Positions 47,776 through 51,581 of a stretch of DNA of 54,754 nucleotides are shown piece by piece. How positions within the stretch are numbered: position 1 is the stretch's first letter; every line of letters begins with the position of its first letter. The translations under genes were made by a program, and so were the position numbers. The notes under the pieces were generated by a model. That model ran no database searches and was not told where the DNA came from. It saw only the letters and a program-made list of their open reading frames with translations. Source of the stretch: Nitriliruptoraceae bacterium (GTDB lineage: Bacteria > Actinomycetota > Nitriliruptoria > Nitriliruptorales > Nitriliruptoraceae); the NCBI GenBank assembly GCA_007130695.1, contig SLRZ01000066.1:1-54754 (forward strand), in the 5' to 3' direction.

Positions 47776-48591
47776 TCACGACCGAGGTCGCTCCCACAAC
47801 GTGAACCGGGTGACGGGCAGGAAGTCGAAGCGGCCGACGAGGACGGGGCGGCTGTCGTCGCTCACGATCGTCACACTGGGCAGATCCGGCGCCCGGGCGA
47901 GGCGGTCGGAGACCAGCGCGCCGTAGTAGCCGCGACCACGGGCGTCGGGTCGGACGGTCGAGAGCAACAGCACGTTCGTGCCGTCGATGAGGGCCTGGCA
48001 ACCGACGGCGACCGCTCGGCGGCCGACGCGCCCGATGATGAAGCGGTAGCGCTCATCGGCCAGGATCGCCGGATCGAACAGCGTGCTCGGCGCGTCCACG
48101 TCGGTGAGGGGGAACGCGTCCACCGCGACGGTGCACCACTCGGCCAGCTCGCTCTTGGTCGTGACCTCCGCCACCGTGAGGTGCCCGGGTCGGCGTCGCT
48201 CGACGGGGAGCCCGGCCGGTCGGTACAGCAGGGGAGGGTGGCCCTGCAGCCTCCAGCCGCGTCCGGTCAGGTCGGGGGTCGGCCACGGAGACCACAGCAG
48301 CGTGGCGCCGGTGCCGTGGCCGTCGTAGAACCGCTCGATCCGCCCGACAGTCGTGCCGAAGGTGTCGTCGCGTGCCGGCTGCAGCTGGGTGGCGCTGTTG
48401 AACAGTCCCGCCGGTCGCCCGAGGTCCACGGCGCTGAACCGGTCATCCCGGTGGAGACGGCCGCCAGCGACCTGGCCGAGCGACTCCCATGTCGCGGTCA
48501 TGGCCAGCACACCGCGCCGCACCAGGGTGTCGTCGGTGGGGGTGTCCGGCTCCCATCCGGTCTCGAGGGCCGGCAGGGTCTCGGTGGTCAT
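47776..48591 (-). CDS. GNAT-like N-acetyltransferase
   Basis: VLLLSTVRPDARGRGYYGALVSDRLARAPDLPSVTIVSDD (acetyl-CoA binding R/Q-x-x-G-x-G/A-like). Confidence 0.7.
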   Translation of the reverse strand: MTTETLPALETGWEPDTPTDDTLVRRGVLAMTATWESLGQVAGGRLHRDDRFSAVDLGRPAGLFNSATQLQPARDDTFGTTVGRIERFYDGHGTGATLLWSPWPTPDLTGRGWRLQGHPPLLYRPAGLPVERRRPGHLTVAEVTTKSELAEWCTVAVDAFPLTDVDAPSTLFDPAILADERYRFIIGRVGRRAVAVGCQALIDGTNVLLLSTVRPDARGRGYYGALVSDRLARAPDLPSVTIVSDDSRPVLVGRFDFLPVTRFTLWERPRS

Positions 48592-48641
48592 CGAAAGGCT
48601 CCGCGAATCGGTACTGCATCCACCTCGACCGTGTCACGTGG

Positions 48642-48692
48642 GGTTGCAGACCGGTTCCACCCCGGTTGCAGCCGGGTGCCCGCCGGGTTCGG
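48642..48692. promoter_or_regulatory. Five heptameric direct repeats at 11-bp period (putative SARP operator)
   Basis: GGTTGCA(48642) GGTTCCA(48653) GGTTGCA(48664) GGTGCCC(48675) GGTTCGG(48686). Confidence 0.78.
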
Positions 48693-48734
48693 GTCATCGA
48701 GCCGGTGATCGCCCGGCGTCACTACCCTGGCTGG

Positions 48735-51581
48735 ATGGTGGAAGTGCTGGTGCTGGGGCCGATAGCAGCGCGGGACGCCGACGGCTCCATCGTCCTGAAC
48801 AGCCGCTCCCAGCGGGCGCTGCTGGCTGCCCTCGCCCACGCCCGGGGAGGCGCCGTCCCGGCTGAGGAGCTCATCACCCTGGTGTGGGGCGACGACCCGC
48901 CGGCCAGTGCGCCCACCACGCTCAAGAGCCACGTCTCGCGGCTGCGCCGGGCGCTGCGCGAGGACGTGGTCGCCTCCCAGCCGCCGGGCTACGCGCTGAC
49001 CGTGCCGCTGGACCGGATCGACGTGCACCGCTTCGAACACGGCGTGCACGCAGCCGGCTCTCTCGGGGAGATCGACGAGGTCCTCGCGCTGTGGCGGGGG
49101 CGCCCCTACGGCGAGTTCTCGGACCACGAGCAGGTCGCCGGCGAGGTCGCGAGACTGGTCGAGCTCCACGCCCAGGCACGGTTGCGTCGAGCCGAGCTGC
49201 TGTTCGCGTCGGGCCGGGCCGAACAGGCGGCCGCGGCCTTCAAGGAGCTGACGGCCGAAGACCCGCTCAGGGAGGCGGCCTGGATCGGTTTGCTGCAAGC
49301 CCTGCATGCGACGGGGCGCCAGGCCGAAGCCACGACCGAGGCGCGCAGCTACCGCGAGCGCACGAAAGAGGTGGGACTCGATCCGTCGCCGCACTACGCG
49401 GAGGTCGAGCACGAGGTGTTCGCGACCGCACCACCGGCTCGGACGCCACGGCGGGCCGGGGCGCCGCTGCCCGGCCGCCTGGCCAGCATCGTCGGTCGGC
49501 AGCGCGAGCTCGAGGAGGTCGACGTGCTCCTGCGCCGTCGCCGGCTCGTCACCCTCGTCGGTCCGGGTGGTGTCGGCAAGACGACCCTGGCCGTACAGGT
49601 GGCGCGGGTGATCGCGGACGACCTCGACGACGGTGCCTGGGTCGTGACGCTCGCCGACATCGATGATGAGGCCTCGGTCGTGCCGGCCATCAGCCGGGCG
49701 GTCGAGGCACCCGCCACTGCGCCACTCGCCACCTCGCTGGAGCAGTACCTCGCCGGCCGGCGCGCCCTGCTGGTCGTCGACAACGCCGAACACGTCCGTG
49801 AGGCCGTGCGGTCGGTCACGCAACGCCTGCTCGCGGTGGCGGACGAGCTGCGGGTGCTGGTGACCAGCCGGCAACCCCTGGATGTCCCCGGCGAGGTCGT
49901 CGTGCCCGTCGAACCGCTGGAGCGGGACGCAGCAGCAGAGCTGTTCCGACAGCGGGCCAGCGACGCCGGGGCGCCGATCCCGCGTGAGCAACAGGACCTG
50001 GCAGCCGAGCTCTGCGACCGGTTGGACCGACTGCCGCTGGCGATCGAGATGGCGGCCGCGCGGCTGCGTGGCCTGGGGCTCGTGGACCTCTCCGCGAGAC
50101 TCGACGAGCACCTGCAGCTTCTGCACTCGGGTGAGCAGGGTCGCCACGAGACGCTCGCCGCGGTCGTGGCCTGGTCCTACGACCTGCTGCACGCCGCCGG
50201 ACGATCGCTGCTCGAGCAGCTGTCGGTGTTCGCCGGCACCTTCGACCTCGAGGCGGCGGAGGCGGTGTGCGGCGTGGGAAACGTGCCCGGCGGCATCGTC
50301 GACCTCGTCGACCGCTCGCTGGTGCACCGCGTCGCCGGTGACGGTCACGCCCACTTTCGCCTCCTCGAGACCGTTCGAGCGTTCGCCGCCGAGCGGCTCG
50401 CCGGTTCCGACGCGCATCTCGGGACCGTCGAGCGGTTCGTGCGCTACCACGTCGGCCTCGCGGAGCGCATCGATGACGGCCTGCGTGGACCCGACGAGGG
50501 CGCCTGGGCCGACGTGCTCGAGGGGCAGCTGCCCAACCTCGAGGCGGCGTGTACCCACGCCCGACACCTGGGCGACGTGGACGCGGTCGTGCGCATCGCC
50601 GTCGCGCCGTACGTGTTCGTCTACCAGCGACTGCGCGCCGACGTCGGTGTGTGGGCCGAGGCGGCCCTGCCGATGGCGAGGGAGGTCGACCACCCCCTGA
50701 CTGTGGCCGTGGCCGCCCTCGTCGCCCTCAACCGCCTCCACCGTGGCGACCTCGACGGCGTCGATGCCGTGCTCGGCGATCTGCCCGACGATCCCGTCGC
50801 GCGGCATGCTCACGAGGTGCTCGGCGACCTGCACACCTACCGTGGCGAACTCGACGACGGCATCGAGCACTTCCGGACCGCTGAACGGTTGGCGCGTCGT
50901 GTCGATGACCGCTTCACCGCGCTGCATTGCCGGATGAGCCGGGGCATGGTCACCGGGTACGCCGGCCGTGTCGACGAGGGCCTGGAGCTCGTCGACACCG
51001 TGCGACGCGAGGCAGCCACCCGGCGGATGCCGATCGTCACCGCGTGGTGCGACTTCGCCGAGGGCGAGCTGCTGGCGAAATCGCAGCCACAGCGAGCGCT
51101 CGAGCTGGTGGACCGTGCGGTGGCTGCAGCCGACCGTGCTGGCTGGCGGTTCGGCGCGGGGGTCGGGCGGCTGACCGCCAGCTCGCTGCGGGCCCGGACA
51201 GCCGATCCCGCCGACGCCGTGCCCGGCTTCGAGCGGTTGATCCGCCACTGGGACCGCGTTGGCGACGAGACCCACCAGTGGACCACCCTGCGCAACCTCG
51301 TCGAGCTGCTCACCCGGCTCGGCGCCCATGCGCCGGCGGCACGCCTACTCGGGGCGGTCAGCACCGCCACCCGGCCGACGTACGGTGCCGAGCAACAGCG
51401 GCTCGACGATGCGCGCCAGACGATCCGGGCCCACCTCGGTGAAGAGGGCGATGCCCTGATCGCGGCGGGGCGGCAGGACGACCTCGGCACCGCGGTCGAG
51501 CTCGGGTTGGACACGCTGCGCCATCTGCCGGGCGGGTCGGCCACGGCTGCACCGCGGCCTCGGCACGCAGAGATCCGGTAG
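48735..51581 (+). CDS. SARP/AfsR-like transcriptional regulator (BTAD + NB-ARC-type ATPase)
   Basis: MVEVLVLGPIAARDADGSIVLNSRSQRALLAAL...LWGDDPP-like winged helix; LVTLVGPGGVGKTTLAVQVARV (Walker A). Confidence 0.94.
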   Translation: MVEVLVLGPIAARDADGSIVLNSRSQRALLAALAHARGGAVPAEELITLVWGDDPPASAPTTLKSHVSRLRRALREDVVASQPPGYALTVPLDRIDVHRFEHGVHAAGSLGEIDEVLALWRGRPYGEFSDHEQVAGEVARLVELHAQARLRRAELLFASGRAEQAAAAFKELTAEDPLREAAWIGLLQALHATGRQAEATTEARSYRERTKEVGLDPSPHYAEVEHEVFATAPPARTPRRAGAPLPGRLASIVGRQRELEEVDVLLRRRRLVTLVGPGGVGKTTLAVQVARVIADDLDDGAWVVTLADIDDEASVVPAISRAVEAPATAPLATSLEQYLAGRRALLVVDNAEHVREAVRSVTQRLLAVADELRVLVTSRQPLDVPGEVVVPVEPLERDAAAELFRQRASDAGAPIPREQQDLAAELCDRLDRLPLAIEMAAARLRGLGLVDLSARLDEHLQLLHSGEQGRHETLAAVVAWSYDLLHAAGRSLLEQLSVFAGTFDLEAAEAVCGVGNVPGGIVDLVDRSLVHRVAGDGHAHFRLLETVRAFAAERLAGSDAHLGTVERFVRYHVGLAERIDDGLRGPDEGAWADVLEGQLPNLEAACTHARHLGDVDAVVRIAVAPYVFVYQRLRADVGVWAEAALPMAREVDHPLTVAVAALVALNRLHRGDLDGVDAVLGDLPDDPVARHAHEVLGDLHTYRGELDDGIEHFRTAERLARRVDDRFTALHCRMSRGMVTGYAGRVDEGLELVDTVRREAATRRMPIVTAWCDFAEGELLAKSQPQRALELVDRAVAAADRAGWRFGAGVGRLTASSLRARTADPADAVPGFERLIRHWDRVGDETHQWTTLRNLVELLTRLGAHAPAARLLGAVSTATRPTYGAEQQRLDDARQTIRAHLGEEGDALIAAGRQDDLGTAVELGLDTLRHLPGGSATAAPRPRHAEIR

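Follow-up and report, generated by a model that had tools for sequence, protein, structure and literature searches.

The question raised by this locus is whether a series of short direct repeats, lying between the gene of a large SARP and a divergently oriented gene for a GNAT-fold protein, is the site through which the regulator acts on its neighbor. SARPs have been studied mostly as activators of Streptomyces antibiotic clusters, and a 2020 paper regards their grouping by DNA-binding domains as worthwhile, since their sites vary (PMC7040171). The window, i.e., the whole stretch of 54,754 nucleotides analyzed here, is contig C203 of a 3.3-Mb Nitriliruptoraceae MAG (G000, about 90% complete). 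An earlier note on this DNA had predicted that five heptamers place the GNAT gene and the following FAD oxidoreductase gene under the control of the SARP. Based on the sequence, we estimate at roughly 85% the probability that three of these heptamers form the operator of the SARP starting at 48735, which would activate the GNAT gene and probably also the FAD oxidoreductase gene (Table 1).

Table 1. Features of the SARP–GNAT–FAD oxidoreductase locus, with positions in the window.
Feature	Position	Strand	Basis
FAD_binding_4/BBE oxidoreductase, 475 aa	46253..47680	-	Pfam; follows GNAT in orthologous loci (conserved)
GNAT-fold protein, 271 aa, predicted target	47776..48591	-	Weak GNAT Pfam matches in relatives; predicted fold
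GGAG, putative ribosome-binding site, 7 nt ahead of the GNAT ATG	48599..48602	-	Invariant in nine aligned loci
CACGGT, predicted -10 element of GNAT promoter	48628..48633	-	8 bp from nearest heptamer; SANSST in 11/12 loci
TGA before -10 (putative extended -10, TGn)	48634..48636	-	TGn in 10/12 loci
Putative operator heptamer nearest promoter, TGCAACC on GNAT coding strand	48642..48648	-	11-bp phase and GGTnnC in 12 loci
Putative middle operator heptamer, TGGAACC	48653..48659	-	Conservation in 12 loci
Putative distal operator heptamer, TGCAACC	48664..48670	-	Conservation in 12 loci
Possible fourth unit, degenerate, GGGCACC	48675..48681	-	Weak: 0.79 bits vs 1.51 for units 1-3
TACCCT, predicted -10 element of SARP gene, 6 nt before ATG	48723..48728	+	TACSCT, 6 nt, start codon in orthologs
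Large SARP, 948 aa, predicted activator	48735..51581	+	Pfam; AfsR and EmbR structures matched by sequence

The heptamer array and its conservation

SARP operators consist of direct heptamers spaced by 11 or 22 bp. Rechecked coordinates place the five heptamers of the earlier note, GGTTGCA, GGTTCCA, GGTTGCA, GGTGCCC, and GGTTCGG, at 48642, 48653, 48664, 48675, and 48686, all exactly 11 bp apart, and the near identity claimed for the first three amounts to 19 of 21 pairwise identities. This is the best three-copy score at an 11-bp period in the 143-bp intergenic region; it was equaled in none of 2000 dinucleotide shuffles of that region, nor at any period from 8 to 14 bp in 1000 shuffles, and the best three-copy score at other periods of the intergenic region itself was 12. 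The heptamers at 48642, 48653, and 48664 are far beyond chance.

The relatives of the window are Nitriliruptoraceae MAGs, derived, by their names, from sediment samples. Orthologs of the GNAT protein (59–79% identity) were found in nine further genomes of the family and a relative of 53% identity in an Acidimicrobiales bin. Most ortholog loci contain a divergent SARP gene, the exceptions being G004 (no adjoining SARP), two contigs that break off early, and L010, with a SARP missing its N-terminal part. Twelve loci, comprising ten GNAT loci, a SARP–FAD locus (L034), and the Acidimicrobiales locus (L028), were aligned on the first repeat. Three units at exact 11-bp phase are kept in the window and the 11 related loci, with an autocorrelation of conservation at lag 11 (p 0.0025). 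The heptamers of units 1–3 carry on average 1.51 bits and their GGTnnC core 1.93 of 2 bits, compared with 0.91 bits in the spacers, 0.79 in unit 4, 0.47 in unit 5, and 0.36 in the DNA beyond. Only the repeats and the promoter elements are conserved; the intergenic length varies, and the heptamer letters shift with the SARP clade, from GGTTGCA to GGTGTCA. The claim of five repeats is thereby reduced to units 1–3 and a fourth that is at most degenerate; five functional heptamers are ruled out by the near-background conservation of unit 5. In other respects the proposed comparison of orthologous loci did not refute the reading, since the 11-bp phase, the 8-bp spacer, and A2 and T6 of the -10 element are all kept.

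Several loci depart from the common arrangement. In L003 (G029:C154), the array has grown into a tandem repeat with a 22-bp period (1213–1341; 5.9 copies, about twelve 11-bp units), and a 16-bp tandem repeat (1096–1191) lengthens the GNAT leader. In L010 (G034:C35, SARP start at 2489), the SARP reads MLEVQLLG and then jumps to around residue 453, so that the DNA-binding and BTAD parts seem to have been lost in frame; the operator itself is intact, and either a deletion or an assembly error would account for the gap. In G004, the GNAT gene lies on C356 (L002/L019), with neither a SARP nor an FAD gene beside it, and the FAD gene lies on C210 (L034), facing a SARP; each has its own box and -10 element, and the split may possibly result from mixed bins. 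L028 (SKKL01000269.1, an Acidimicrobiales MAG) carries a divergent SARP–GNAT pair with a GGTTGCC/GGTGTCA/GGTTGCA array in a bin of another class, reflecting either horizontal transfer or mis-binning.

The regulator and its predicted targets

The SARP is composed of wHTH, BTAD, and NB-ARC domains and a TPR-like C-terminus (Pfam). Large SARPs of the AfsR type have an OmpR-type DNA-binding domain and then BTAD at the N-terminus, with a STAND ATPase and TPR at the C-terminal end. Trans_reg_C (residues 23–77) followed by BTAD (108–228), and NB-ARC (269–483), score above the cut-offs, and the C-terminal TPR matches score below them. With 136 bits against the 1430-bit cut-off of the NCBIfam AfsR equivalog, the protein does not qualify as an AfsR ortholog. 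The sole other BTAD protein of G000 (L258, C36:1759-2160) has a long TPR-like region first and its BTAD domain behind it, which inverts the usual domain order.

The product of the divergent gene in the window gave no Pfam match, and its relatives match GNAT models weakly; its predicted fold (mean pLDDT 71) resembles GNAT structures. The FAD oxidoreductase gene begins 95 bp downstream and is probably the second gene of a GNAT operon, although a gap of this length leaves room for doubt about co-transcription. Its product resembles the FAD enzymes of bagremycin and ferroverdin, with scores far under their cut-offs.

Two predicted promoters of different kinds

The positions given earlier for the start codons (GNAT ATG at 48591, SARP ATG at 48735) and for CACGGT on the minus strand (48633–48628), 8 bp from the first repeat, agree with the coordinates. 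In SARP operators the 3' repeat lies 8 bp from the -10 element, and this distance was found in 11 of the 12 loci; L028 fits a GNAT -10 element only with a 9-bp spacer. The minus-strand hexamers at the 8-bp spacer are CACGGT, CACGGT, GACGGT, GAGGGT, and GATGGT in L001–L005, CACCGT, GACGGT, GATGGT, GACGGT, and GATGGT in L006–L010, and GAGGCT in L034, with A2 and T6 invariant and T never at position 1. Read from its letters, the predicted GNAT -10 is a poor one, as is typical of activated promoters. The proposed -10 element was thus borne out by conservation at the 8-bp spacer, while the TG preceding it in 10 of the 12 loci (L005 has none) had been overlooked.

The SARP gene is preceded by a promoter that appears to be of another kind. 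TACSCT, which is near consensus, exactly 6 nt, and a start codon follow one another in seven orthologs scanned, for which reason a leaderless SARP mRNA is predicted as probable, both in the window (48723–48737) and in the orthologs. The distance from the array to the SARP -10 element varies between loci.

The same layout at other SARP genes of the class

For 146 further SARP genes (loci L036–L228) from class-mates of the window genome, the DNA upstream was scanned for three heptamers at an 11-bp period, followed after 8 bp by a -10 element with A2 and T6; the sample contains orthologous groups and does not represent 146 independent cases. The anchored version was used, as the 11-bp scan of paralogs is insensitive without the -10 anchor. 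At score 15, arrays point away from the SARP, at the divergent gene, in 39 of 146 cases and toward it in 4 (shuffled control: mean 0.8, maximum 3 in 60 shuffles), and at score 16 in 22 and 0 cases, respectively. Control periods of 9, 10, 12, and 13 bp gave 0–3 matches at score 15 with the 8-bp spacer. The 11-bp period also scores high with spacers of 7–10 bp, because the 7-mer register can slide inside the 11-mer. Of 117 heptamer units, 103 have A at position 4, compared with a background of 14%, and 37 of 39 -10 elements start with C or G. In 38 of 41 matches at score 14, the -10 element is followed within 6–125 nt by an ORF of 60 or more codons, which in GC-rich DNA is weak evidence alone. 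The divergent targets tested by Pfam include a methyltransferase, an ABC ATPase, SnoaL, rhodanese, and an SSF symporter, as well as a cupin below the cut-off.

The heptamers are specific to groups (TTGAGCG, GCAAGCG, TCCACGC, TGCACAG, GACAGCG, TCGACCG, and others), and their letters cluster by the type of recognition helix: KSH with TGCAACC or TGACACC, RSH/RTH with TCCACGC or TGCACAG, QQR with GACAG or GAAAG, QTY/HTY with GCAAGCG, and QTH with TCGACCG or CTGAGCG. Distances between boxes correlate with distances between helices (partial r 0.17, equaled in 0 of 2000 permutations). After thinning to below 60% identity the correlation is marginal (110 of 2000 permutations), and shared ancestry is therefore a possible source of it. 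A direct residue–base code is suggested by these data, but a residue-by-residue code cannot be regarded as established when the signal is only marginal after removal of close relatives. We lean slightly toward the view that the large SARPs of this class have multiplied into local switches, each with its own heptamer facing a divergent promoter at the 11-bp/8-bp geometry, with box letters tracking the helix type around a common A4; such natural pairs could reveal a recognition code, and their targets would extend beyond antibiotic clusters.

In one group of loci (L208, L200, L214, and L216), the SARP helix reads TLQSYLSRLR or SLQSHLSRLH and the boxes are of GCAGGCG/GCAAGGY type. The SARP of L216 faces a sodium:solute symporter (Pfam SSF), the divergent protein of L200 gave no Pfam match, and divergent proteins of L208, L200, and L214 include some that we take to resemble the N-termini of proline dehydrogenases; a SARP of proline use is possible.

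Comparison with known SARP systems

The box of ActII-ORF4 and DnrI is TCGAGCC. The GGTTNCA box, contrasted earlier with this TCGAG type, proves less unlike it than was claimed, as TGCAACC, in the coding-strand register, shares T1, A4, C6, and C7 with TCGAGCC. The operators of ActII-ORF4, DnrI, and FdmR1 likewise place three direct heptamers ahead of the gene they control (PMC10972967), whereas these regulators are small SARPs without NB-ARC/TPR parts and belong to antibiotic clusters.

A close parallel is AfsR of Streptomyces coelicolor, a large SARP that contains NB-ARC/NOD and TPR parts. According to the cryo-EM study (PMC10936776), the SARP box at the afsS promoter covers the -35 region with 11-bp direct repeats, one of them 8 bp away from a poor -10 element (CACTGT in afsS, CACGGT here). 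The DNA-contact residues are largely conserved: R92, S91, R94, and K95 of AfsR correspond to R69, S68, R71, and R72 of the window SARP, and T88 is replaced by S65. The systems differ in the number of repeats (two in afsS, three here), in their letters (TTCATCG, read in the same 8-bp register, vs TGCAACC), and in the target, which is a pleiotropic gene for AfsR and a local one here. The main operator of PimR from Streptomyces natalensis also has three heptamers with 4-bp spacers, each bound by one monomer with at least two required; in contrast, its CGGCAAG box lies clear of the -35 region and PimR has an LAL-type C-terminus (PMC5930380).

Proposed mechanism and alternative explanations

The mechanism is modeled on the AfsR complex, in which polymerase is brought to a poor -10 element (PMC10936776). 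One SARP DNA-binding domain would sit on each heptamer, side by side on one face of the DNA, and the array would cover the -35 region of the minus-strand GNAT promoter. The BTAD part would recruit RNA polymerase to CACGGT, too poor to work alone, thus turning on the GNAT gene and probably the FAD oxidoreductase gene. A promoter of its own would supply the SARP with a leaderless mRNA, and some signal may gate the activity of the protein through its NB-ARC/TPR part. Besides the evidence given above, G004 favors the inferred control of the GNAT gene by the SARP: the GNAT and FAD genes there, though apart, each keep the box and the -10 element. Against it stand the 9-bp spacer of L028, the missing TG of L005, the GNAT copy of G004, which has no adjoining SARP, and the SARP of G034, which no longer has a DNA-binding domain next to a preserved box; G004 and G034 are both MAGs.

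An improbable alternative is a SARP bound to the array whose main effect is to repress the GNAT gene or to control its own gene. The array does lie between both genes, and PMC10972967 mentions a SARP repressor, Atr32. The fixed 8-bp distance, however, is to the GNAT -10 element, the one of the two that is poor, whereas the SARP -10 element stands at variable distances and is near consensus; the predominance of arrays pointing away among the 146 SARP genes also argues against this alternative.

Even less probable is an operator of another OmpR-type regulator with an incidental SARP neighbor. Direct repeats with an 11-bp period are likewise used by PhoP, whose sites in Streptomyces overlap those of AfsR (PMC10972967), and the period alone cannot tell the two apart. 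A PHO box or the box of a global OmpR-type regulator would be expected at several promoters, whereas in G000, about 90% complete, the triple heptamer has one site when ≤3 mismatches are allowed, and this single genomic site was the ground for rejecting PhoP or another global regulator. The shift of box letters with the SARP clade and the recurrence of the layout, built from other heptamers, at 39 of the 146 SARP genes scanned also point to the SARP. Across 35 genomes of the family, the full-site pattern gave 11 matches, nine at the GNAT locus and two unrelated, and the reversed-pattern control gave one. Extra matches were not counted as a regulon, because the control also yields about one; candidates rejected as members were L057 (only two units matched, within ORFs), L061 (a simple repeat of GGTGGCA), L070 (within ORFs), and L071 (before an unrelated gene).

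That the repeats arose by chance, or are coding sequence of a longer SARP frame, for which orthologs offer 26 to 355 open codons upstream, as is common in GC-rich DNA, is scarcely credible in view of the shuffles and the confinement of conservation to repeats and promoter elements, and a coding extension through the repeats is ruled out by the fixed succession of -10 element, 6 nt, and ATG together with the free intergenic length.

Significance

The abstracts and selected passages of the SARP literature searched contained no TGCAACC heptamer, no match for SARP together with Nitriliruptor, and, with few subscription journals covered, no class-wide set of SARP–operator pairs. The operator of the window is a further case of a known SARP site type, outside Streptomyces and identified, as a prediction, from the DNA alone. 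The class-wide set of regulator–operator pairs is of more interest than this single site. With the 11-bp/8-bp geometry, roughly one in four of the SARP genes sampled in the class gains a candidate operator, and such matched pairs would make SARP specificity testable and the targets of uncharacterized SARPs predictable.
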